64,000 nucleotides of DNA from an uncultured Crocinitomix sp. (GCA_905478225.1 CAJQHR010000018.1:62001-126000), one strand, 5' to 3'; positions 27,222-50,922 are shown, counted from the first letter of the stretch. Notes: generated from the letters alone by a model not told the origin. Made by a program: numbers and translations.

Positions 27222-28298
27222 ATGAAAATAAATAAATTAATTAAAAACACATTTTTAGTAGGAATGGCATTCGGATTAAGCGGTGCTGCTTTCGCTGGAA
27301 ATGGTGACAGAGTTGGTTCGGCAGGAGCAACAGAATTGCTAATCAACCCTTGGGCAAGAAGTGCCGCTTGGGGAGACGCAGGAGTTTCTTGTGCAAATGG
27401 ACTTGACGCCGTATTTACGAATATCGCTGGATTAGCCTTTACGGAGAAGACACAAATTCGCTTCGACAGAACAAATTGGCTTGGCGGTGCTGGAATTAAT
27501 CTTAATTCAGCAGGATTTGCACAACGTGTTTCTGAAAGCAGTGTAATCTCTGTAACCGTCATGGCAATGACCTTCGGGGACATTGATATTACGACGGTAG
27601 ATTTACCTGAAGGCGGAATTGGAACGTTTTCACCAACATATTCGAACTTTAATGTCGGATATGCACGTGAATTCTCGAATTCAATCTATGGTGGAATTAA
27701 CTTCAAAGTAATCACTGAATCAATTGCTGATTTAAGAGGTACTGGTGTAGCTGTTGATGCTGGAATTAGATACGTAACTGGTGAAGAAGATCAAATGAAG
27801 TTTGGTATTGCATTAAAAAATATCGGACCAACAATGAGCTTCAATGGTGATGGACTTGGACAACAAGTTGAGTATCCAGGAACTGGAGACCTTGCTACAT
27901 TGGAGCAAAGATCGGCAACTTTTGAAATGCCTTCTTTACTTTCAATTGGTGGATCTTATGATTTTAACTTTACTGAAACAAACAAGTTAACTGCAGCATT
28001 AGCGTTTTCTGCAAACTCTTTTTCAAATGATCAGTTCCGCCTAGGAGCTAATTACGAAATGGAATTAGAAAAAGCAAGATTCAACTTAATGGCTGGATAC
28101 GTATATGAGTCAGGTGTATTTCAATCTACATTTGGTTACGAGCAACGTGGAACAGCAATGAGCGGTTTAACTGCGGGAGTTTCTGTAGATGCAATTGTTG
28201 GAAAAAACAAAAGCATGCTAGGAATTCAGTATACTTTTAGAAATACTAGAAATTTCGACAATGTTCATTCAATTGGATTGTCAATAGAAATTTTGTAA
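27222..28298 (+). CDS. PorV/PorQ-family outer-membrane beta-barrel protein
   Basis: 358 residues: signal peptide ending AAFA, then GSAGATELLINPWARSAAWG and GLDAVFTNIAGLAF, the N-terminal signature of the PorV/PorQ (UPF0164) family. The rest alternates as barrel strands to the terminal GLSIEIL. PorV shuttles T9SS cargo from the SprA/Sov translocon to the attachment complex, and PorQ anchors the PorZ/PorU side. As this copy sits beside one giant secreted protein and a receptor, it may be a dedicated paralog for that cargo; PorV itself is usually encoded elsewhere. Confidence 0.85.
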   Translation: MKINKLIKNTFLVGMAFGLSGAAFAGNGDRVGSAGATELLINPWARSAAWGDAGVSCANGLDAVFTNIAGLAFTEKTQIRFDRTNWLGGAGINLNSAGFAQRVSESSVISVTVMAMTFGDIDITTVDLPEGGIGTFSPTYSNFNVGYAREFSNSIYGGINFKVITESIADLRGTGVAVDAGIRYVTGEEDQMKFGIALKNIGPTMSFNGDGLGQQVEYPGTGDLATLEQRSATFEMPSLLSIGGSYDFNFTETNKLTAALAFSANSFSNDQFRLGANYEMELEKARFNLMAGYVYESGVFQSTFGYEQRGTAMSGLTAGVSVDAIVGKNKSMLGIQYTFRNTRNFDNVHSIGLSIEIL

Positions 28299-39212: not shown

Positions 39213-40301
39213 ATGAAAATCGGGTTATTTTTCGGGGTCTTATTATTGAGTATTCCCCTATTTAGTCAAACTACTATCAATTCTTCAGATTTCCCAACAG
39301 GTGGAGACACTGTTTTGGTAAGTATCACAAATGATTTTGAATACGATTTTGAATCAACAGGCGCAGATTACGTTTGGGATTACTCGGCATTGAATATGAA
39401 CGAGCAAAGAATTGATACCTTTTTTGATATTGATGATGCGAGTTTATTGTATCAAGTAGTGTTTAATAATGGTTGGTTTGATCCCGATTATCAGGCAGAT
39501 TATTACACCCCACTTCTAAACTTCGCTTTTCCAGAAACAGATGTTGTGCCTATTGGAAATCCAGTTGGATTTACAAAAATAGAATCTGACAAAGTTGAAA
39601 TTATTGGTGTTGGATTGGAAATTTCTGGAATTAAAATTCCTGTTAAAAATGAGATTATTGATATAGAGTATGAATTGCCAATGAATTTTGAGGACGCCTG
39701 GGAATCAAATTCATTTTTCGAAGTGGACCTTAATCCTGCTTTTGATGGAATTTTAAGAAGACATCAAGAACGTGTTTCAGAGGTTGATGGATGGGGTGAA
39801 GTCACCACGCCTTTTGGCATCTTTGATGTTTTACGAACAACAGCTAAAATCGATTTTACAGATTCATTGCGAATTACATTTGGAGAATTTACAACTTGGA
39901 TAGAATTACCAACTCCAAGTCAAGTGGTTTATTCCTGGTGGGCAAAAGATCAGAAAATTCCAGTTTTACAAGTCATTGCGCAAGATGTTGGTGGCTCTGA
40001 AACAATTACAAGTGTTGAATATAAAGATCGCGACTTACATGATGTCAGCATAACTGAAAACGGTGCAAATCAAACGAGAATTGAATTGTTTCCTGTGCCT
40101 TCGTCTGATTTTATCAATATAATTAGTGAATCAGAAATTCAAAACGTTCAAATTTATTCAGTAAGCGGTGCCCTTAACACCAGTAATATTTGGTCAGCAG
40201 AAACGGGGATTTTAAACGTTTCACAATTGGTACCAGGTAGCTATATCGTCTACATTATTAATGCAGACGGTGCTTATGCCGAGCAAATTGTCATAGAATA
40301 A
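39213..40301 (+). CDS. T9SS-secreted protein, last gene of the ECF sigma operon
   Basis: 362 residues: signal peptide MKIGLFFGVLLLSIPLFSQ, a beta-rich body (YVWDYSALNMNEQRID, GWGEVTTPFGIFDVLR) and a T9SS type A tail from IELFPVPSSDFINI to EQIVIE. It starts 10 bases after the lipoprotein. Its secretion to the cell surface by T9SS in an operon with a sigma factor suggests a surface partner or output of the sigma system. Confidence 0.85.
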   Translation: MKIGLFFGVLLLSIPLFSQTTINSSDFPTGGDTVLVSITNDFEYDFESTGADYVWDYSALNMNEQRIDTFFDIDDASLLYQVVFNNGWFDPDYQADYYTPLLNFAFPETDVVPIGNPVGFTKIESDKVEIIGVGLEISGIKIPVKNEIIDIEYELPMNFEDAWESNSFFEVDLNPAFDGILRRHQERVSEVDGWGEVTTPFGIFDVLRTTAKIDFTDSLRITFGEFTTWIELPTPSQVVYSWWAKDQKIPVLQVIAQDVGGSETITSVEYKDRDLHDVSITENGANQTRIELFPVPSSDFINIISESEIQNVQIYSVSGALNTSNIWSAETGILNVSQLVPGSYIVYIINADGAYAEQIVIE

Positions 40302-40342: not shown

Positions 40343-40347
40343 TTCTC

Positions 40348-40712
40348 AATAAACTGTCTTGTCGCCACAACCGCAAGGTTATGGAGGAAAGTCCGGGCAA
40401 CATAGAGCATCATACTTCCTAACTGGAAGGATTTCACTTGTGAAATACAGCTAGTGCCGCAGAAAATATACCGCCTTGGCCTTGTGCCTAGGTAAGGGTG
40501 AAAAGGTGGGGTAAGAGCCCACCGCGCTTAAGGTGACTTAAGTGGCAGGGTAAACCTTATGAGTTGCAACATCATGTAAACCAAGGCTTGAAGCTTGCTC
40601 GGCTAAACTTGGAGGGTAGATGGATTGATCCAGTTGGCGACGACTGGGCGAGATAAATGGCAAGAATTTCAGATGCAAATTTGGATTACAGAACCCGGCT
40701 TATAGGTTTATT
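40348..40712 (+). ncRNA. rnpB: RNase P RNA (catalytic RNA of ribonuclease P, bacterial class A)
   Basis: The 5' conserved block GGAGGAAAGTCCGGGC at ~40383-40398 and the 3' block ACAGAACCCGGCTTATAG at ~40688-40705 are the universal P4-containing ends. The ends pair as P1: AATAAAC at 40348-40354 with GTTTATT at 40706-40712. The internal CCGCTTAAGGTGACTTAAG and AGGGTAAACC blocks also fit. RNase P removes 5' leaders from tRNA precursors. Confidence 0.97.
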
Positions 40713-40719
40713 ATTTTTT

Positions 40720-42385: not shown

Positions 42386-42925
42386 GTGGAGCTAAAACGA
42401 TTTAATATAGAAGAAGAATTGTCTTCCATCCGATTTTCATGTGCGGATGAAGCCATAGGGGAGATCAAAAACTTGTTTTTTCAAGATCAATTGACTGAAG
42501 AGCAAATTTTGGTTGAAATCTATAGTCCAAACAATAGCGAAACCACAAAAATCGATATGAATCGATTGAATATCGATCGGGTTTTTTCAAAAAAACATAT
42601 TACGAATAAGTATTTCTTCAGCAGGTGCAAATTGGTTGATTCAGTCAAGTTCCAAGGCGATTATTCAATCCGCACAATCCTAGAAATTAAAAGTGAACAA
42701 CGTCGATTAGAAGCTGAGTTTAGAGGCTTCTTTGTAATACTTCCGGGTAATAAACTTTATGCGATTGATTCAGAACCATTATTGTTCGCGCAAGTCGGGC
42801 CGCATGCTTATTATTTACTAAACTATTATTTGTTAGAAGAAGATCGCGCCCCACGTTTCAAGTTTAAAAACATATTCAATTGGATCAAAAAAAGGATTTC
42901 TTCAAAGACGTCTTCCAAGTCGTAG
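42386..42925 (+). CDS. Unrecognised cytoplasmic protein
   Basis: 179 residues from a GTG; no signal peptide or membrane helix. The body mixes alpha and beta (EEELSSIRFSCADEAIGEIK, EIKSEQRRLEAEFRGFFVIL, AQVGPHAYYLLNYYLLEED) and the C-terminus is basic (FNWIKKRISSKTSSKS). The last 46 bases overlap the start of the ATL gene in another frame. I do not recognise a family. The tight overlap suggests co-translation with ATL. Confidence 0.65.
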   Translation: MELKRFNIEEELSSIRFSCADEAIGEIKNLFFQDQLTEEQILVEIYSPNNSETTKIDMNRLNIDRVFSKKHITNKYFFSRCKLVDSVKFQGDYSIRTILEIKSEQRRLEAEFRGFFVILPGNKLYAIDSEPLLFAQVGPHAYYLLNYYLLEEDRAPRFKFKNIFNWIKKRISSKTSSKS

Positions 42926-43218
42926 AGTTAATTCCAGAAGGTCGCGTAACATCTTATGGGGCCATTGCAAAATGTTTGGGTGCTGCCCGCTCAAGCCGAT
43001 TAGTTGGTTGGGCCTTGAATGCTTCCTTCAAAAGTCCCGTTAATATTCCCGCCCACCGAGTTGTCAATCGCCTAGGTATGTTGTCCGGTGCAACGCACTT
43101 TCTTACACCCACAGCAATGGAGGAGCGATTAACCGCCGAAGGACACCAAATCGTTGACAATCAAATTGTCGATTTTAAAGCGGTGTACTGGGATCCGCTG
43201 GTAGAGTTGGCGTTGTAG
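42880..43218 (+). CDS. Alkyltransferase-like protein (ATL; MGMT DNA-binding domain without the reactive cysteine)
   Basis: 112 residues starting at TTG 42880. It has the helix-turn-helix DNA-binding domain of O6-alkylguanine transferases: IPEGRVTSYGAIAKCLG, the arginine-finger region ARSSRLVGWAL, and PAHRVVN (58-60) where the active enzyme has PCHR. With alanine at the acceptor site it cannot take the alkyl group. ATL proteins instead bind and flip O6-alkylguanine and recruit nucleotide excision repair. Length is typical of ATLs. Confidence 0.88.
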   Translation: MDQKKDFFKDVFQVVELIPEGRVTSYGAIAKCLGAARSSRLVGWALNASFKSPVNIPAHRVVNRLGMLSGATHFLTPTAMEERLTAEGHQIVDNQIVDFKAVYWDPLVELAL

Positions 43219-43445
43219 GAAAAAAAGGTAGGCCAAATTGAACGGTTTTCATATTATTGGTCTGGTGATGAGGATCAAGGTGTCTTGTCCTTTTCAGTTT
43301 CATCTGTAAAACAGATTTAAAAATGTAGCCGGCTTGTTTAGGTTTGCACTCAGAAGAAATTATCTAGCTTCCAACCCTAAAACAAACACAAAAAAAAGTC
43401 CAACACCCAACATCTAATATCCAAAAAAAACCTACCTTTACCTTA

Positions 43446-43692
43446 GAGTTTTGGTTTCAGCCTATTTATTTAGGATAGAATTAAAATGGGAATCAAGTGC
43501 CTTTTTGAAAAAGAAAAGAATTCTTGAACTGTTCCCGCAGCTGTAAGCTCCAAAACGTTGAATAATACCACTGCCGATTAATTGCAGCATTGAGAGATCA
43601 TTGAGGTTCTCGAAATGTCGAAAAGCAAAGATTAACAGGCGGGAAGGATTTAACGCCAAGGAGTAAGTCAGAAGACCTGCCATTCTCAGATT
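43446..43692 (+). promoter_or_regulatory. Cobalamin (B12) riboswitch
   Basis: Conserved blocks are in order: TGGGAATCAAGTG (~43486-43499), ACTGTTCCCGCAGCTGTAA (the B12 box, ~43528-43546), CCACTGCCG, GGGAAGGATTTAACGCC, and AGTAAGTCAGAAGACCTGCC (to ~43682). This is the class I AdoCbl-type layout. Downstream, 43701-43758 can form competing stems (GCACCA with TGGTGC, GTGCGG with CTGCAC), a plausible expression platform before the ATG at 43829. It should repress the downstream operon when cobalamin is plentiful. Confidence 0.95.
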
Positions 43693-43828
43693 AAACTAAT
43701 GCACCATTGTGTGCGGCTTTCGGGATAAAAGCAAAGTTTAGGTGGTGCCTTTCTGCACGCTTATTCTTCGTTTCTATTCTTTTTATTAATTAGGCTAAAA
43801 CCAAAAACGAGCCAAAAAAATTAAAAGA

Positions 43829-45373
43829 ATGAGAAGATTACTATTGATTGGGGCCATTTTGCTCACATCTTTGACTGTGAAATCTCAGTTTTCACAAAAT
43901 GATTTAATTTATTATGTAGGGGAAGGTCCGGACACGGCTGTAATTGTGGTTGATTTTTTGGATGCAACTGAGGATACTTGTTATGCTTGGGGATTTCTAT
44001 TTGACGCTACGGAATCAATTACAGGAGGGGATGCCCTGGACGCTATTGCTCTTAATGAGAATAAACTGGACTACGCGATTGACGGCGGATTTTTATCTGA
44101 AATTCATTATAACGCACATAGTGGTATTGGCGGTGATCCAGCTTGGTGGGGAATTTATAGCAAAACGACTGATACGGATTGGGAATCAAATGACGGTTTG
44201 TCCGAATTGCTTGCCAACGGTGATTGGTGGGGATGTGCCTATACTGACTTTGATCCAGAAATTCTTCCTGGTGAGCCAATTGCGGCCTATGAATCGGAGA
44301 AGTATGATGCGTCAATGATTGAGTATTGGGTGGGAACTGGAGCTGATTCTGCCGTTTTAGTTGTTGATTTTGTGGTCGGCCCATCTGGTGAAGCAATGAG
44401 CTACGTCTGGGGATATAGATTCGACGGAACAACAGATGGCGAAACTATGTTGAACGCAATTGCTGCCGCGGATGTGAATTTATCCGTTACTGCTGGACCA
44501 TTTTTAGATGATATTATTTTCAACGGATTAGAAGGTTTGGCCGCTGATCCTCATTATTGGGGAACTTGGAGTGGCACGAATTTGACAGACTGGACTGAGA
44601 ATGTTGGAATTGGTACAACAGTAAGTTCTGGGGATTGGTTTGGATGTTCTTATGATGCTTGGCCTGCTCGACGTCCTTTTAATCCAATTTCTGCATTGGA
44701 TTCAGCTGATGTGGCGTTCACTGATATTGAATTTATGAGTGGTTCTGGAGAGAATAGGGCAGTATTGGTAATTGATTTTAATGAATGGCTACCAGGTCAC
44801 TCTTATTCTTTTGGTTACGCGTTTGAAACAGAAACAATAACCGCTCAAGAAATTATGGAGGGTTTGCAAGATGAAGGATGGTTTTGGTTAGATTTTAACT
44901 TGGACGGTGGTTTTTTAAACGACATTGTTTATGGCGCAGCTGCTGAAGAAGAATTGGCTGGAGCTCCAAATTATTGGAGTACTTGGAGTGCTAAAAATGT
45001 GGGCGGTTGGACTGTTAATGCAGGAATAACAACGGAAATGTCTGACGGTGATTGGTTTGCATGTTCCTATACAACTTGGGCTCCGGCAACACCACCTAGT
45101 TTGCCAGAATTTGGATACCCAGTTTGGGGAATTGATGAGAATCAAGAAGCAGAGCTAACGCTTTACCCCAACCCCGCTACCACTGAATTTACAATTGATT
45201 TAGTTGAGAATTCTTTGGTTGAAATTATAGATGTGCAAGGGAAATTGGTTTACCAACAGTTCGATCAAATGGGTTTGAATACGATTGACGTTTCAGGTTT
45301 ACATCAAGGAATTTATTTTGTAACGGCATCTGTAAATGGTAAGTCGGCTAGACAAAAATTAATCATTCAATAA
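43829..45373 (+). CDS. Three-repeat T9SS-secreted protein, first gene of the B12 operon
   Basis: 514 residues: signal peptide (1-20, ending KSQ), three tandem ~130-residue repeats (about 27-157, 164-293, 300-430) and a T9SS type A tail from about 443 (LTLYPNPATTEFTI). Each repeat has VGxGxDxAVxVVDF, a YxWGYxFD-like block, FLxDIxYN, YWGTWS-like and GDWFGCSY. Under control of the cobalamin riboswitch and upstream of a BtuB-like receptor, it is probably a surface B12- or corrinoid-binding protein. The repeat is not one I can name; the Trp-rich GDWFGCSY end loosely recalls DUF4430/transcobalamin-C-like folds. Confidence 0.85.
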   Translation: MRRLLLIGAILLTSLTVKSQFSQNDLIYYVGEGPDTAVIVVDFLDATEDTCYAWGFLFDATESITGGDALDAIALNENKLDYAIDGGFLSEIHYNAHSGIGGDPAWWGIYSKTTDTDWESNDGLSELLANGDWWGCAYTDFDPEILPGEPIAAYESEKYDASMIEYWVGTGADSAVLVVDFVVGPSGEAMSYVWGYRFDGTTDGETMLNAIAAADVNLSVTAGPFLDDIIFNGLEGLAADPHYWGTWSGTNLTDWTENVGIGTTVSSGDWFGCSYDAWPARRPFNPISALDSADVAFTDIEFMSGSGENRAVLVIDFNEWLPGHSYSFGYAFETETITAQEIMEGLQDEGWFWLDFNLDGGFLNDIVYGAAAEEELAGAPNYWSTWSAKNVGGWTVNAGITTEMSDGDWFACSYTTWAPATPPSLPEFGYPVWGIDENQEAELTLYPNPATTEFTIDLVENSLVEIIDVQGKLVYQQFDQMGLNTIDVSGLHQGIYFVTASVNGKSARQKLIIQ

Positions 45374-45405
45374 TCTTAAAAGCAATTTGATATAGCCATT
45401 GAAGG

Positions 45406-47397
45406 ATGCATTTAAAAAGGAACATATTTCTTAGTTTTTGCATTCTTTTGGCGTGTCAAACTTTTGGGCAAGACACTTCGCTTTATTTGAAGCCAATTCC
45501 CGTTTTCGCAAAACAAGACACCATTCTGAAATTGGCTATGATTACGGCAACCATTCCCCATTATGAATTACAACAAGCAAAGTTGGACGAGTTGGGTGCC
45601 GCTGATGTTGGAGATGCATTGAAATACGTGCCAGGTGTTCAATTACGAGATTATGGCGGAATTGGTGGAATTAAAACAGTTTCTTTTCGAAGTTTAGGAG
45701 CAGGGCATACAACGGTGCAAATGGATGGGAATCAGATTCCGAACGTGCAAAGCGGTGTCATAAATTTATCTTCTTTTGAGCTTTTTGGTTTGGAAAAAGT
45801 GGCGTTTAGTTCGGGTCGAGCTGTTGATCAAAGATCTTCAGCTACGGCTTATTTGCAAGCTAATACGATTGCATTGAATTCTAAATTGGCTAGTCAACCG
45901 ACCAAGTTTAGATTGGGGTTTTATTCTAATTCTATGTCAATTAACGCTTATGAAAATGGCGGATTGGCACAGGCGAGATTGGGTAAACGATTCTTTATCG
46001 GTGGGCAATTTTTGTTACGTCTTGGAAGTGGGACCTATCCTTTTTATCATCCAGAAGAGGACGGAGCAGTGTTACGAACAAGAGCAAATACAGCACTTTT
46101 TAATTATAGATGGAGAACATTACTGGGTTATGATCATGGAAAGACAAAAGTAACGACGAGCCTTTCATTTAATGATAATGAGCAAGAATTACCTGGCGCG
46201 GCGGTGCTTTTTAATCCGTCGAATGATCAAAAGCTATGGAATAAAGATTGGCGTGCTAATCTAAATCATAGTTTCAAAAAAGGTAAGTGGGTTTGGCAAA
46301 ATCACATAGACTTTAATCAGAACTATACGCGTTATTTTGATCCTTACAATTTGAGTCTTTTAGGATTTATTGATGTAGATTATCAGCAACGTAACTTAGC
46401 AGGTGGATCAATTTTATCAAAATCATTCCGCTTTCCAGCCGAGCGTATTTTTATTGGTTCGGACGTTATTGCGAGTCATTTACTCAGTCAGACAATTAAT
46501 GGTGCTCCCCAACGCATGCAAAGTAATAGCGTAATTGGTGGAGCAACGCTTTTTGGTAAATTTAAGTTGGATGCGAACTTAACCGCCCAGTTTATTATTG
46601 ACCGCCTAGGTGAAAGTGTGACTGGTCAAGAAAGGAATTACGGGAAATTGTCGCCTTTTATTTCTTTGGGCTACTCTCCTCTTAAAAAGGCGACGTTGAG
46701 ACTAAGGACTTTCTTTAAGAATACCTTTCGGATGCCAACATTTAACGATTTGTACTATAATTTTATTGGGAATACGAATCTATTGCCGGAGGATGCGAAT
46801 TTATTCAATTTGGGAGTGACCTACGGTGTTTATAAAAAAAGATGGACTGCGGAATTTTCTGCGGATGCCTATTATAATCGAGTCACAAATAAGATTATTG
46901 CAATTCCAACCAAGGATTTGTTTAATTGGAGTATGCAAAACATTGGAAGTACTGATATTCGTGGTGTTGAGGTTGGTGGACTACTTTCTTTCGCTGTTCG
47001 CGAATTTCGAATTACAACAAACACAAATCATTCGTTTAATGAATCAATAGATGTGACAGATCCGTCAAGTGAGAACTATGGAGATCAAATTCCTTATACG
47101 CCTTATTATTCTTCAAGTAATGGATTCAATGTTACTTGGAAAGGATACGGATTTAGTTCTAATGTACTAATATCTGGTTTTCGATTTTCACTAAACGAAA
47201 ACAATTATGCCAATTTATTGCCTGGTTTTGTTGACCTTAACTCAGGATTGTCCAAGAAGTTCAATCTCAAATCCAATGAACTTTTTGTCGATTTAAAAGT
47301 GCAAAACCTATTAAATAAAAATTATCAAGTGATCCGGAGTTTTCCAATGCCTGGAAGATATTATCAACTTAGAATTAAATACACTATTAAGAAATGA
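45406..47397 (+). CDS. TonB-dependent receptor, BtuB-like (cobalamin uptake)
   Basis: 663 residues: signal peptide ending TFGQ, plug domain (about 50-170: DELGAADVGDALKYVPGVQL, GIKTVSFRSLGAGHTTVQMDG, SSFELFGLEKVAFSSG) and a 22-strand-type barrel ending YYQLRIKYTIKK. It lacks the carboxypeptidase-like N-domain of SusC-type receptors and matches the vitamin/siderophore class in size. Position after the cobalamin riboswitch and just before a BtuG-like lipoprotein identifies the substrate as cobalamin by context. The stop overlaps the next ATG. Confidence 0.9.
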   Translation: MHLKRNIFLSFCILLACQTFGQDTSLYLKPIPVFAKQDTILKLAMITATIPHYELQQAKLDELGAADVGDALKYVPGVQLRDYGGIGGIKTVSFRSLGAGHTTVQMDGNQIPNVQSGVINLSSFELFGLEKVAFSSGRAVDQRSSATAYLQANTIALNSKLASQPTKFRLGFYSNSMSINAYENGGLAQARLGKRFFIGGQFLLRLGSGTYPFYHPEEDGAVLRTRANTALFNYRWRTLLGYDHGKTKVTTSLSFNDNEQELPGAAVLFNPSNDQKLWNKDWRANLNHSFKKGKWVWQNHIDFNQNYTRYFDPYNLSLLGFIDVDYQQRNLAGGSILSKSFRFPAERIFIGSDVIASHLLSQTINGAPQRMQSNSVIGGATLFGKFKLDANLTAQFIIDRLGESVTGQERNYGKLSPFISLGYSPLKKATLRLRTFFKNTFRMPTFNDLYYNFIGNTNLLPEDANLFNLGVTYGVYKKRWTAEFSADAYYNRVTNKIIAIPTKDLFNWSMQNIGSTDIRGVEVGGLLSFAVREFRITTNTNHSFNESIDVTDPSSENYGDQIPYTPYYSSSNGFNVTWKGYGFSSNVLISGFRFSLNENNYANLLPGFVDLNSGLSKKFNLKSNELFVDLKVQNLLNKNYQVIRSFPMPGRYYQLRIKYTIKK

Positions 47398-48437
47398 GAG
47401 GAATACAATTCATAGCCGTACTCCTGCTAATTGCTTCGTGCAAGAAACCGGAAGCGCCGAGTATACCCGAAAGGTACGAAAACGGAATTTTGGTCTTGAA
47501 TGAAGGGCTTTATGAGCAAAACAACGCATCCATGACCTTTTATGATGGTGCGGAATCCTTTCAATTGGTTTTTAAATCAGAAAATGGACGTGGAATAGGG
47601 GATACGGCAAATGATTTTGACGCCTATTCTTTGCTTGGAAAGGAATATATCATAGTCGCGGTAAACCTTTCTAGCCAAATTGAAATAATAGAACGAAAAA
47701 CGTTGAAGGTAGTCGCACAAATCCCACTTTATGATGGAATAAATGCGCGGCAGCCAAGAGATATTGATATTTATGGCACTCGTGCTTACGTTTGCAATTT
47801 TGATGGAACAGTGGCAGTGATTGATCTAATATCATATACAATTATTGATTTAATTGAAGTGGGCGCAAATCCAGATGGATTGGTCATAGTGGGAGATTAT
47901 CTTTATGTTTCGAATTCTGGGGGATTGGATTATCCAGTTTACGATTCTACCATGTCAGTGATCAATTTGTCATCTTTATCCTTGGTAGAAACGTTTGAAA
48001 CGCGCATAAATTCTACCCAAATGATTGTGGATGAACAAGGTGAAATCTATTTACTTTCAAATGGCAATTACGCGGATGTTTCAGCGGCTTTATTGCGTAT
48101 TGATCCTACAACGAACACGGTTGTTCAAACCATTGAAATGCCTATTTCATCAATGGCTTACACTTATAATGGGTTTTATTATTATGATGAAGATGAGCAG
48201 GCAATTTATTTTTATAATACGGTAACAGAGGACATAAACACAAGCCCATTTTTAAGTGTTGCTGATTATGAAACTTTCCATGGAATAAAATATGACGCCC
48301 AGAACGATCGATTGTTATGTGTGGATGCGAATGGATATGTGAATTCATCAACCGTTAATGCTTATAGTTTATCGGGAGAGTTTTTATTTCAATTTCAAGC
48401 TGGGTTATTAGCAACGGATATGATTTTTAACAATTGA
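47394..48437 (+). CDS. BtuG-like beta-propeller lipoprotein (YncE/DUF5074-like)
   Basis: 347 residues; lipoprotein signal IAVLLLIASC (lipid cysteine C16). The mature part is a YncE-type propeller: ENGILVLNEGLYEQNNASMTF, GINARQPRDIDIYGTRAYVC, IEVGANPDGLVIVGDYLYVS and similar repeats. In Bacteroides, BtuG is a surface propeller lipoprotein that binds B12 very tightly and caps BtuB. Fold, lipidation, 4-base overlap with the BtuB-like gene and riboswitch control all fit a BtuG counterpart. Sequence identity to BtuG itself was not tested. Confidence 0.85.
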   Translation: MRGIQFIAVLLLIASCKKPEAPSIPERYENGILVLNEGLYEQNNASMTFYDGAESFQLVFKSENGRGIGDTANDFDAYSLLGKEYIIVAVNLSSQIEIIERKTLKVVAQIPLYDGINARQPRDIDIYGTRAYVCNFDGTVAVIDLISYTIIDLIEVGANPDGLVIVGDYLYVSNSGGLDYPVYDSTMSVINLSSLSLVETFETRINSTQMIVDEQGEIYLLSNGNYADVSAALLRIDPTTNTVVQTIEMPISSMAYTYNGFYYYDEDEQAIYFYNTVTEDINTSPFLSVADYETFHGIKYDAQNDRLLCVDANGYVNSSTVNAYSLSGEFLFQFQAGLLATDMIFNN

Positions 48438-48539
48438 CTTTCTATAAGAGACACCTGCCTCGGCCGGTCAAATTCCATTTAATCAAGACTTCATGCAAAA
48501 TACTAGAGACTAAATACTAACAACTAAGGACTAAAAAAA

Positions 48540-49520
48540 ATGAAATTACTATTAATCATAAGTCTACTTGCCACTTCAATGGCATTTACCCAATTCGCTC
48601 CTTCAGCTGGAGAAGTTGGAACAACGGCAGTTCATAAAGACTCAAGTGCTTTTGTGGACTGGGCTTTTGAAGTTGTTGAGTTTACGCGTGGACCAGAGGA
48701 TATTGAAAATCCTGACGGACTGCTGGCAAGTTTTGGTGATTCTACTGCAGCATTGGGTCCGGCTGAAGGCACGAGTACGGATGTTGTAAGTTTGGGAGAT
48801 AAAGGGTCAATCACATTGATATTTAATTTTTCCATTCGCAATGATGATGGCCCTGATTTCGCTGTTTTTGAGAATAGTTTTTCAAGTGATTATTTAGAAT
48901 TAGCGCATGTTGAGGTGAGTTCAGATGGCGATCGTTTTGTTAGAATTCCTTCCATTTCAAACATACCTACGGATGAACAAATTGAGACTTTTGGTTCAAC
49001 AGACGCCACGTTGATTCATAACTTGGCAGGGAAATACAGTCAAGGGTACGGTACACCATTTGATTTGGAAGATATTGCGGATTCAACAGGGCTTGATTTA
49101 ACGGACGTAAACTTTGTGCGAATTATAGATTGTGTCGGAAGCATTAACCCCGCATTTGGAACAAGGGACAGTGAAGGGACGCTAATTAATGATCCGTATA
49201 AAACCGATTTTGAGAGTGGTGGATTTGATTTGGACGCGGTTGGTGTGATCCATAGTAACAATCCGAGCCTTTCAATTAATATGGAGGCAGAAAATGTGTT
49301 TTCCACCTATCCAAATCCAACAAACGGACAATTAAATATTCAATTTTACGGAGACCTAAAAGAGCTGATGTTATTGGATGGAATGGGGCGGATTATCTAC
49401 AGAGGAAATCACATTTCATTGGATTTACGTCAAATGGGATTGAACGCCGGAACTTACTTTTTACATGTTGTTGATAAGTTGGACATGGTCCATCAGGAAA
49501 GAATAATCTTTTTAGATTAG
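48540..49520 (+). CDS. T9SS-secreted cell-surface protein of the B12 locus
   Basis: 326 residues: signal peptide (about 1-18), a domain with SLGDKGSITLIFNF, DDGPDFAVFENSF and LAHVEVSSDGDRFVRIPS, and a T9SS tail from VFSTYPNPTNGQLNI. The pattern G-DFxVFENxF...VxVSxDG is that of secreted proteins I recall as frequent beside BtuB/BtuG genes in Bacteroidota. A 102-base gap separates it from the BtuG-like gene, so it may be the last cistron of the operon. Role in corrinoid capture is inferred. Confidence 0.8.
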   Translation: MKLLLIISLLATSMAFTQFAPSAGEVGTTAVHKDSSAFVDWAFEVVEFTRGPEDIENPDGLLASFGDSTAALGPAEGTSTDVVSLGDKGSITLIFNFSIRNDDGPDFAVFENSFSSDYLELAHVEVSSDGDRFVRIPSISNIPTDEQIETFGSTDATLIHNLAGKYSQGYGTPFDLEDIADSTGLDLTDVNFVRIIDCVGSINPAFGTRDSEGTLINDPYKTDFESGGFDLDAVGVIHSNNPSLSINMEAENVFSTYPNPTNGQLNIQFYGDLKELMLLDGMGRIIYRGNHISLDLRQMGLNAGTYFLHVVDKLDMVHQERIIFLD

Positions 49521-49537
49521 AAAGTGTTTTGGGTCAT

Positions 49538-49639
49538 TTAGCCTTGTTCTTCTTTATTTCGAGCTACAAAAAATGTATAGGCTAAAAATAATACAACGAC
49601 CACTCCTAAAATCTTCCATGCAAGGTAGTAAGTGTCCAT
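49538..49639 (-). CDS. Possible 33-residue single-helix membrane protein
   Basis: A short ORF from ATG (49637-49639) to TAA: MDTYYLAWKILG, then a hydrophobic VVVVLFLAYTFFV and a charged ARNKEEQG end. It has the usual form of a small membrane protein: a helix of about 18 residues with a positive cytoplasmic end. No ribosome-binding site or homolog can be shown. Confidence 0.35.
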   Translation of the reverse strand: MDTYYLAWKILGVVVVLFLAYTFFVARNKEEQG

Positions 49640-49791
49640 AAATTGGTTGTTGGTTAATCCTAATGTATTGTTTTTCAGGGATAAAAGCAAGTTTTTAACA
49701 GTGATATGTTAATTCTGCTGATAAACTTCCTGTTGTGCATTTTACGTGTTCTTATTTCTTACCTTTAGATTTGCCTCAAAATTTGATAAAA

Positions 49792-50372
49792 ATGACACGA
49801 TACATCCTAGTTTTCGCATTGTCCCTATTTAACCTTTCATGCTTCAGTCAAGAACAGCGATTTATGGGAGTTATAAAGAATGTTGAATTTAATATTCTAT
49901 ACAGAGGATATGAAAATCAAATGGAAATGATGACCTGTGAAGCCTACGATTTTGTTTATGTTTTTTCGAAAGATGCCGTAATAATTATGAGAGAAAAAGG
50001 ACAGTTTGTTGTAAAACCAATGCCCGGTTCTCGCAATTTAACTTTACGTGTCAAATGCATTACAGGGAGCGATACGACCGATTTGTAGGGAGAGAGATAT
50101 CACAAAAATCGCTACCCCAACCCAATATTTAATTGGGCGGAATTGAAGTGGGCAAAACAACATTTATATCTGAGGGCGCAAAACTGACGGATGATTTTAG
50201 AAATGCTTTTGTTGAAGCCCGAAAAGGTACAAAAGTGTATTTTGATTATGTCACTATAATTACCCCAGATGGGCTAGCACGAAAAATAAAATTGGATCAA
50301 ACTTATATTAAAAAAGAAAAGCGCAATGCAGAATATGACTTTGATACAGACCAACAAAAGTGGCTAACCTGA
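49792..50372 (+). pseudogene. GldM C-terminal-domain-like exported protein, broken by stop and frameshift
   Basis: The ATG at 49792 opens the signal peptide MTRYILVFALSLFNLSCFSQ. It continues to TAG at 50086-50088, then in the same frame RYPNPIFN, after which the reading shifts to the frame holding GGIEVGKTTFISEGAKLTDDF, KGTKVYFDYVTIITPDGLARKI. The pieces line up with the C-terminal periplasmic domains of GldM (T9SS motor): NxxYxGxxN, an RVKxIPNP-like strand, GG, and KGSKVYFENIxxxxPDGxxR. Two lesions separate them. It is probably a dead member of a family of small exported GldM-C-like proteins. Confidence 0.65.
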
Positions 50373-50385
50373 ACGGTGTGGCTAA

Positions 50386-50922
50386 TTAAACAACCTCTTG
50401 TTGTAGCGCTGCTATTTTCGCTTTCACAGCCTTGCACAAAATGCCGAACTGTTCATACCCAATTTCCTCTACGCCAATTACTATAGCTGAGGTTCCTCTG
50501 CCAGCATGGTAAACGAACAAATGATGGTCCAATTTTTCGCAGGTAGTAAAACTATTCCAAGTAAATTCACAGTCCCCAAATCCATGGCTTGATCCAAATT
50601 TTTGATCGTTGAAAAATATTTTTTGAACGCCTTTTTCTTTTAATTGAACCATTACAATTTCTAACCGCTTTTGAGCCATTTTTGTAGCCCTATAATAAAG
50701 GAAGAGAATATATAAGCCATACATGAAAGCAAAAATCATGAACACCGTGCGACCTTTGTCCTCAATTGTAGCTATGAGATTCAATACTAGCAAAATAATC
50801 CCTGAGCATAATGAAATCACTCCCCAGGTTAAATTTCGCTTCCAGTAATGTTTGAGTTGGACTTTAAGTGCTCTCTTTTCACGGGCTGCATTAAATTCAA
50901 TGTCAAATTCAAAATCTTCCAT
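50386..50922 (-). CDS. YcxB-like membrane protein
   Basis: 178 residues. Two membrane helices near 33-52 (GVISLCSGIILLVLNLIA) and 60-77 (FMIFAFMYGLYILFLYY), then a soluble YcxB-like domain (IVMVQLKEKGVQKIFFN, CEFTWNSFTTCEKLDHHLFVY). Function unknown for the family. It is convergent with the preceding pseudogene and 46 bases upstream of the stop of the outer-membrane protein gene. Confidence 0.75.
   Translation of the reverse strand: MEDFEFDIEFNAAREKRALKVQLKHYWKRNLTWGVISLCSGIILLVLNLIATIEDKGRTVFMIFAFMYGLYILFLYYRATKMAQKRLEIVMVQLKEKGVQKIFFNDQKFGSSHGFGDCEFTWNSFTTCEKLDHHLFVYHAGRGTSAIVIGVEEIGYEQFGILCKAVKAKIAALQQEVV

Follow-up and report, generated by a model that had tools for sequence, protein, structure and literature searches.

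A 64,000-nucleotide stretch of DNA from an uncultured Crocinitomix sp. (GCA_905478225.1, CAJQHR010000018.1:62001-126000; hereafter the window, with positions counted from its first letter) carries a cobalamin riboswitch and, behind it on the same (+) strand, the four genes TP514, btuB, btuG and TP326. These elements most probably constitute a B12-repressed operon for capture and uptake of B12 at the outer surface, a variant of the BtuBG system that is equipped with secreted B12-binding helpers. The assignments of the riboswitch, BtuB and BtuG stand on strong family matches, while those of TP514 and TP326 stand on fold and linkage. A preliminary description made from the sequence had taken the region for a corrinoid-uptake locus, and the riboswitch, receptor and propeller all match such a locus by family.

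TP514 (514 aa, 43829-45373) is separated by 32 nt from btuB (663 aa, 45406-47397), which overlaps btuG (347 aa, 47394-48437) by 4 nt, and a further 102 nt separate btuG from TP326 (326 aa, 48540-49520). A scan of 42800-50400 revealed no terminator between the genes; it returned 3 sites on both strands compared with 6.0 in shuffled sequence, and both + strand candidates fall within btuB.

A cobalamin riboswitch precedes the operon

A full cobalamin riboswitch had been proposed at 43446-43692. An Infernal-type search (cmscan) upholds this proposal, as RF00174 matches 43435-43698 (+) over the full model (positions 1-189) with a score of 74.7 bits (gathering score 31.5, E 1.4e-16). It is the sole cobalamin riboswitch detected in the 3.5 Mb genome to which the window belongs. 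Cobalamin riboswitches are expected to form a kissing loop between L5 and L13. The letters TCCCG at 43533-43537 (+), which we presume to lie in L5, could pair with the loop of a hairpin located 3' of the aptamer (GCTTT-CGGGATA-AAAGC, 43716-43732, +), a candidate for P13 with what we likewise take to be L13. The L5-type sequence TCCCGCA is present at 9 of 9 TP514 loci but at 1 of 18 other loci tested, and TCGGGAT is found in the hairpin loop at 9/9 TP514 loci, these letters recurring at 4/18 other loci.

Regarding the expression platform, an intrinsic terminator was considered and rejected, as the terminator scan found none. A pyrimidine-rich tract at 43760-43789 (+) has the potential to pair with the start-codon region and is a candidate platform, in a suggestive sense only; across relatives it co-varies by eye with the start-codon region. 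The pairing score was equalled by shuffled upstream sequence in 3-38% of cases at the nine TP514 loci, so that most of the nine fall short of significance, and the corresponding fraction ranges from 0 to 0.82 over all 27 loci tested. These data suggest translational control by sequestering of the start codon as a plausible lead rather than as a result. Minimum free energy folding of the complete leader (z -1.67) did not recover the aptamer structure. Repression of the operon by B12 through the riboswitch is predicted from the sequence.

The window aptamer also contains a long insertion at 43578-43636, comprised of 59 nt where the RF00174 model has 5, and its bit score is below that of 29 of the 35 matched relatives.

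BtuB and BtuG

The second gene had been described as a BtuB-sized TonB receptor. Its product matches Bacteroides thetaiotaomicron BtuB1 (8blw_A) with an E-value of 5e-79 over residues 10-656, and includes a plug domain match of 8.6e-10, with the match to TIGR01779 remaining below the cut-off (74.7 versus 599.7). The product of the overlapping gene is, as had been anticipated, a DUF5074 beta-propeller protein of the BtuG type. It passes PF16819 with 45 bits against a cut-off of 27.2 (1e-11) and matches BtuG1 (8blw_B) with an E-value of 4.2e-34, along with 8ptf and 8ptd (3e-34), which are labelled just YncE family protein. A lipobox-like LIASC near its N-terminus, identified by eye and not by SignalP, is consistent with a lipoprotein. 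Comparison of receptor and propeller with known structures thus led to a corrinoid system, the BtuB1-BtuG1 pair, and not away from one. BtuG has been described as a lid on BtuB (passages of PMC10404256), and a stable BtuB-BtuG lid complex that binds B12 is predicted here as well.

TP514 contains repeats that resemble transcobalamin beta domains

TP514 is composed of a signal peptide, three beta-type repeats (43889-44296, 44297-44704 and 44705-45109, all +) and a type A C-terminal sorting domain of the type IX secretion system (T9SS) at 45161-45370; no further Pfam domain passes. Repeat 2 shares 39% identity with repeat 1 and 38% with repeat 3, and the tail passes both PF18962 (54.8 versus 27, 1.2e-14) and TIGR04183 (58 versus 23, 6.9e-16), in agreement with the earlier reading of this gene as a three-repeat T9SS protein.

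In order to characterize the repeat we assembled relatives from 80 named loci, the top-ranking ones among at least 562 relatives retrieved in a search with TP326. Repeats occur at 24 of these loci, in 25 proteins with 62 domains, and 57 of the 62 were aligned with the 3 window repeats to give 60 sequences (alignment A4) for modelling. The fold of the TP514 repeats is read from the model of repeat 2, which has a predicted local distance difference test (pLDDT) score of 89.0 and the beta-grasp order strand-strand-helix-strand. When this model was compared by Foldseek with 350,542 PDB chains, ranks 1-12 were all transcobalamin or intrinsic factor, the best having an E-value of 0.056 and a probability of 0.96. 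VIA-align, applied as a re-examination of Foldseek's own 432 best chains, placed intrinsic factor, haptocorrin and transcobalamin in rows 1-14 with Z 9.5-10.9 and a root-mean-square deviation of 2.0-2.7 Å over 92-100 residues. Row 15 is the bacterial protein 3u7z (Z 9.3), which we take to be a DUF4430 protein, and from row 16 onward Z is 7.2 or less; models lacking a clear match usually reach Z 7 to 8 according to the note that accompanies the tool. In the model, strands 62-66 and 70-75 follow a helix at 48-58, the position at which additional strands would mark the transcobalamin-type clade, and the alignment spans residues 12-122, given here as a span and not as a residue-level superposition.

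A sequence link points in the same direction. DUF4430 (PF14478) is matched at E <= 1 by 13 of the 60 members of the repeat family (best 3.5e-7) and is the family most frequently matched. Kirola, a latex-like protein and an RTX protein also gave weak PDB sequence matches with the repeat, which were read as chance. The folds of BtuF and BtuJ are not among the rows listed for the TP514 repeat or TP326 models, an absence that excludes nothing. The TP514 repeats thus resemble the beta domains of transcobalamin and intrinsic factor and are DUF4430-like, and corrinoid binding by them is predicted. Crystals of the human transcobalamin beta domain on its own contain bound cyanocobalamin, held with an affinity below that of the full protein (passages of PMC5599065), so a beta domain without its partner toroid would be able to bind B12.

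TP326 is a BtuH-like protein

The last gene had been described as encoding another T9SS protein. Its product passes PF18962 at 49308-49505 (+), though narrowly, and does not pass TIGR04183; PF18962 is matched at E <= 1 by 37 of 37 members of the TP326 family alignment (A1). Apart from this tail, neither Pfam families nor PDB sequences match TP326 significantly. Among the 80 top-ranking loci of at least 562 relatives, its closest named match is a protein from a Crocinitomix metagenome-assembled genome (MAG), with 63% identity.

An AlphaFold2 model of the domain encoded by 48591-49274, built from 82 sequences, has a pLDDT of 96.1. The first Foldseek rank for this model is the BtuG1 chain 8blw_B, which carries an H domain (E 4.6e-5, TMq 0.48). 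Re-examination of 1000 Foldseek matches with VIA-align ranked BtuH2 (7biz) first with Z 12.9, 3.0 Å over 160 residues, and residues 392-660 of 8blw_B, the H domain of BtuG1, second with Z 11.8, after which Z falls to 9.8 with a CBM32 at rank 3. The sequence is consistent with this assignment. The profile of the TP326 domain matches residues 428-473 of the H domain in 8blw_B (sequence E-value 0.0082, stretch E-value 0.048). A hidden Markov model (HMM) of the domain also matches proteins of about 400 aa encoded beside btuBG, in a small search that covered the open reading frames of eight stretches only. One of them, with 405 aa and an E-value of 1.9e-6, is a clear BtuH (1.4e-67 to 8blw_B, 2.2e-45 to 7biz). 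Profile-profile comparison of the TP326 domain with BtuH gave an E-value of 2.5e-5 with a probability of 75.3 over 37 columns.

Asn112 of TP326, located in the motif FENSF, is invariant in 37/37 and 82/82 sequences. The profile-profile alignment places it on the Asn of a GNAF motif in BtuH, which corresponds by position to Asn399 of BtuH2 (index 299 with an offset of 100, the same offset that fits Trp577). Asn399 contacts the phosphate of bound B12 (passages of PMC8941943). By eye, no lipobox cysteine is present in the N-terminal stretch of TP326, which has a T9SS tail in its place, and because it lacks a lipoprotein anchor we file TP326 as BtuH-like and not as BtuH. TP326 is BtuH-like by fold and by sequence, and it probably binds B12.

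Linkage and gene fusions in relatives

Full TP326-type proteins were found in 39 of 58 other relatives searched, and these 39 loci contain btuB in 37 cases and btuG in 37. RF00174 was detected in 35 of 40 fetched stretches from relatives; four of the misses are cut by contig ends (L065, L066, L068 and L069) and the fifth, L097, is a lone gene. Full-length TP514 is present in 8 of the 58 relatives, 6 from the same genus and 2 from the same family, and its place is cut by contig ends in two more members of the genus. In 8/8 stretches from close relatives RF00174 lies upstream of the gene run that bears the repeat. The same arrangement is seen at 24/24 named repeat loci, established at L103 (scanned as L072) by RF00174, at 14 by coordinates together with the letters of the B12 box, and at 9 by cmscan. 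Seven further repeat stretches yielded a cobalamin riboswitch in 5, including L191, where a two-repeat T9SS gene stands alone with a riboswitch of its own ~60 nt upstream; L195 is cut by a contig end, and L196 encodes a repeat-like lipoprotein with no riboswitch within its 7 kb stretch.

The helper domains are also joined to one another. The repeat is fused to a BtuH-like (TP326-type) domain at 8 of the 80 named loci, and DUF4465 is fused to a BtuH-like domain at L118 and L147, each behind a riboswitch. Repeat, BtuG-like propeller and T9SS tail form a single protein at L190, L192 and L194, the propeller of L190, the one scanned of the three, matching PF16819 with 4.4e-113. T9SS-tagged BtuG-like propellers occur at 7/80 named loci. 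In genome G332 (L193) a riboswitch is accompanied by BtuB, a 656-aa BtuG fusion and DUF4465, and the two preceding genes encode a kinase and a thioredoxin-like protein. When we examined the 14 named loci that have no repeat and lack btuB or btuG, RF00174 was found upstream of the TP326-type gene in 6 (L111, L117, L133, L156, L163 and L168, with the riboswitch of L133 ~1.2 kb away); five of the remaining 8 were negative by scan, and L134, L138 and L173 were judged by coordinates only. In an even draw of the phylum comprised of 296 Bacteroidota genomes, BtuG was found in 43 (E <= 1e-20, own genome included).

Several individual loci differ in architecture. L150, L164 and L167, from two Bacteroidales MAGs and one Bacteroidetes, encode secreted proteins of 2235-2383 aa in which 4-5 transcobalamin-like repeats are combined with a BtuH-like domain and a T9SS tail, directly behind a cobalamin riboswitch. 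The system is apparently split within one relative (G021), which has a TP326 gene with no adjoining riboswitch or btuB (L097) and, at another place (L197), btuB and btuG together with a riboswitch and a one-repeat T9SS protein. TP326-type genes also occur outside of Bacteroidota, in Planctomycetota strain ZRK32 (L168:7484-8735) and a Spartobacteria MAG (L133:6619-8795); both have a cobalamin riboswitch upstream, and neither product has a T9SS tail by HMM.

TP514 holds the place of a DUF4465 protein

PF14717 (DUF4465), the family of BtuJ, was considered for TP514 and TP326 and rejected, as neither matches it at E <= 1, and no PF14717/DUF4465 protein was found in the genome. DUF4465 is present in 23 of the 40 fetched stretches from relatives, often as the leading gene of the operon. 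Of 25 leading proteins we scanned 21, omitting L080, L089, L094 and L099; PF14717 was matched by 21/21 and a T9SS tail by 19/21. L080 and a fragment in L069 matched the DUF4465 HMM in a later search. We take the entry IPR026444 to be the T9SS tail. This entry is carried by 229 of 824 DUF4465 proteins, as a C-terminal extracellular targeting motif (passages of PMC12751083).

Repeat and DUF4465 never occurred together, neither in the 40 stretches (8 with repeat, 23 with DUF4465) nor at the 80 named loci (24 and 22; hypergeometric 7.9e-5, a value that ignores relatedness). TP514 holds the place that in most relatives examined is held by a DUF4465 (BtuJ-type) protein, which is mostly T9SS-tagged as well.

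At three loci of relatives from the same taxonomic order (L089:3472-4848, L094:7058-8347 and L099:3508-4788) the leading gene encodes neither DUF4465 nor a repeat. The products are T9SS-tagged, 426-458 aa in length and propeller-like by eye, and in the two that were scanned no Pfam propeller match was found.

Proposed mechanism and alternatives

We propose that under scarce B12 the riboswitch would permit expression of the operon, and that the T9SS would export TP514 and TP326 to the outer surface. There the three transcobalamin-beta-like domains of TP514 could bind corrinoid, each perhaps loosely, to create a high local concentration, with TP326 supplying one further BtuH-like site. Corrinoid would then be handed over to BtuG, whose lid would close on BtuB, followed by TonB-driven import, and the imported B12 would serve enzymes, for example MetH or methylmalonyl-CoA mutase. 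The steps that we infer are binding of the ligand to TP514 and TP326, its hand-over to BtuG and the surface location.

The preliminary description had further supposed that T9SS-delivered proteins replace or extend the lipoprotein helpers, and this part of the idea fits the predicted folds because B12 binders are the closest structural matches of both T9SS proteins (transcobalamin beta for TP514, BtuH for TP326). The other part, that capture may begin off the membrane or on filaments, gained nothing from the analysis, and a filament location was set aside as no supporting evidence was found. A type A T9SS tail does not by itself distinguish anchored from released cargo.

A number of observations weigh against a B12-capture operon with secreted helpers. 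The Pfam scan revealed no alpha/alpha toroid in TP514, and transcobalamin uses this domain for tight binding. Taken singly, the Foldseek E-values of the repeat are weak, none being 0.001 or less. Window repeat 2 has no Pfam family match and no PDB sequence match below E 0.1, and all 27 close repeats fail to match PF14478 even at E <= 10. The repeat fold alone is no proof of a B12 ligand, because SLBB relatives include presumed polysaccharide binders. In the present copy TP326 has a borderline T9SS tail (28.1 versus 27 for PF18962; 20.4 versus 23 for TIGR04183), and among the BtuH2 contacts Asn399, Gln333, Tyr510, Trp511, Trp577 and His476 the equivalent of Asn399 alone was located on TP326. 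The linkage counts come from a chosen and related sample, as the 80 named loci are the top-ranking part of at least 562 relatives, and the repeat is uncommon, found in 6 of the 296 Bacteroidota genomes (E <= 1e-6, own genome included). Finally, the operon has no btuF, btuC or btuD, and candidates elsewhere in the genome fall below the curated Btu cut-offs.

Some of these points would fit the TP514 repeats being SLBB/beta-grasp polysaccharide binders or a spacer, leaving corrinoid to BtuB, BtuG and TP326 only, an explanation that we consider improbable. Besides the weak Foldseek E-values and the missing toroid, it can draw on the Nqo1-like clade of SLBB proteins, which is linked to polysaccharide export (passages of PMC1796856). 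However, the nearest structures are specifically those of the transcobalamin clade, DUF4430 is the most frequent Pfam match, and repeat and DUF4465 are mutually exclusive. Additionally, the riboswitch is present at every named repeat locus, L150, L164 and L167 included, and at L191, and in these four no btuB or btuG was found in the fetched locus. Slightly less probable is that the repeat belongs to the same family as the B. thetaiotaomicron lipoproteins BtuK1 and BtuK2 (BT_1486 and BT_1487) and is thus a known B12 binder in other wrapping. BtuK1 binds B12 and sits in such an operon, and no fold is named for BtuK in passages of PMC12751083; passages of the later paper PMC13398666 mention B12-binding loops of BtuK. 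The structure searches with the repeat contained no row named BtuK, which does not exclude BtuK.

Our preferred reading, a B12 operon with secreted helpers, is otherwise compatible with TP514 and TP326 being released and returning corrinoid to BtuG in a siderophore-like manner, a variation that has some chance of being true but that we think unlikely. The type A tails would allow it, though cargo with such tails can be either anchored or released. BtuJ vesicles of B. thetaiotaomicron have been proposed to act in a siderophore-like manner (passages of PMC12751083), but the passages of the literature examined contain no demonstration that BtuG takes up B12 from a free holo-protein. That the locus imports another ligand altogether, for example haem or a siderophore, with the riboswitch being incidental, is very improbable indeed. 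The receptor does show a weak match to the haemoglobin/transferrin-type profile TIGR01786 (1.5e-10, 40.1 versus a cut-off of 323.75), but BtuB1 is by far its best structure match, and BtuG1, the riboswitch and the BtuH-like and transcobalamin-like folds of TP326 and TP514 all argue for a corrinoid.

A broader proposal, which we offer tentatively and regard as somewhat doubtful, is that T9SS-exported arrays of 1-5 transcobalamin-beta-type domains, either alone or fused to BtuH-like or BtuG-like caps, are a secreted counterpart of the animal B12 carriers. They would form a two-lobe corrinoid clamp like that of intrinsic factor and hand over to BtuBG, with DUF4465 being interchangeable for the same task.

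Comparison with known systems

The closest described system is the BtuB1-BtuG1 (BtuGH) locus 1 of B. thetaiotaomicron, which likewise has a riboswitch, a BtuB1-like receptor, a BtuG lipoprotein and an adjoining BtuH-type domain (passages of PMC10404256 and PMC12751083). Unlike in that locus, the BtuH-like domain here is a separate T9SS-tagged protein that is neither fused to BtuG nor a lipoprotein, a three-repeat transcobalamin-beta-like T9SS protein heads the operon, and no DUF4465 was found in the genome. TP326 shares fold and sequence links with BtuH (7biz; passages of PMC8941943), from which it differs in that a T9SS tail replaces the lipoprotein anchor, the domain is shorter and a PKD domain was not found by Pfam. 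DUF4465/BtuJ proteins, the operon leaders of many relatives, have an augmented jelly roll, a fold unlike that of the TP514 repeat, and a Fluviicola taffensis member binds B12 (passages of PMC12751083 and PMC13398666).

The predicted fold of the repeat is like that of the beta domain in animal transcobalamin, intrinsic factor and haptocorrin (2bb5, 2pmv, 4kki), whereas TP514 has three such domains in tandem, no toroid, a T9SS tail and 10-18% identity. It belongs to the same superfamily as the bacterial SLBB/DUF4430 proteins (PF14478; 3u7z; passages of PMC1796856) by fold and, via relatives, by sequence. In 2007 the bacterial transcobalamin-like SLBB members were predicted to scavenge B12, and a Clostridium fusion of SLBB to a beta-propeller was noted (passages of PMC1796856). 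According to the same passages this clade comes chiefly from planctomycetes and low-GC Gram-positives, where CbiO/CbiQ-like genes frequently accompany it, in contrast to the Bacteroidota, BtuBG, T9SS tails and cobalamin riboswitches seen here.

BtuBG, BtuH, DUF4465/BtuJ binders and DUF4465 proteins with C-terminal extracellular targeting motifs are already in print. A literature search that lay mostly outside subscription journals found no report of transcobalamin-like domains in Bacteroidota B12 operons, and the word "transcobalamin" is absent from PMC8941943 and PMC10404256 and occurs twice in PMC6143338. This suggests that what is new is the repeat domain in Bacteroidota, in tandem, T9SS-tagged, preceded by a cobalamin riboswitch and either adjoining BtuG and BtuH-like domains or fused with them, a comparison in which BtuK was considered by description only.

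If our reading is correct, the helpers of BtuBG would gain a domain whose fold resembles the half of human intrinsic factor and transcobalamin that grips B12, and the helper beside BtuB would be modular, being DUF4465, transcobalamin-like repeats or a T9SS-tagged BtuG-like propeller. TP514 and TP326 are directly testable proteins for the question of how surface helpers pass B12 to BtuG. The system extends past Bacteroides to Flavobacteriales and to Bacteroidales of ruminants and horse (L141, L144, L157, L161), and tandem B12-binding domains are possible capture reagents.

Genome context and neighboring features

The genome encodes several users of B12, namely MetH, methylmalonyl-CoA mutase and an IcmF-like piece, as well as a CarH-like regulator. 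For B12 synthesis, the single match to the marker PF07685 was weak and partial, within a 237-aa frame, and is uninformative because 14/14 controls also match.

PorV-family T9SS proteins are present in the genome. One lies within the window at 27324-28289 (G000:C18:89324-90289, 152 bits), and four further PorV-family matches, two with an in-frame TAG, are clustered at 32-36 kb of contig C5. Upstream of the operon, a class A RNase P RNA (266.2 bits) is located at 40346-40718, immediately past a gene at 39213-40301 for another T9SS-tagged protein.

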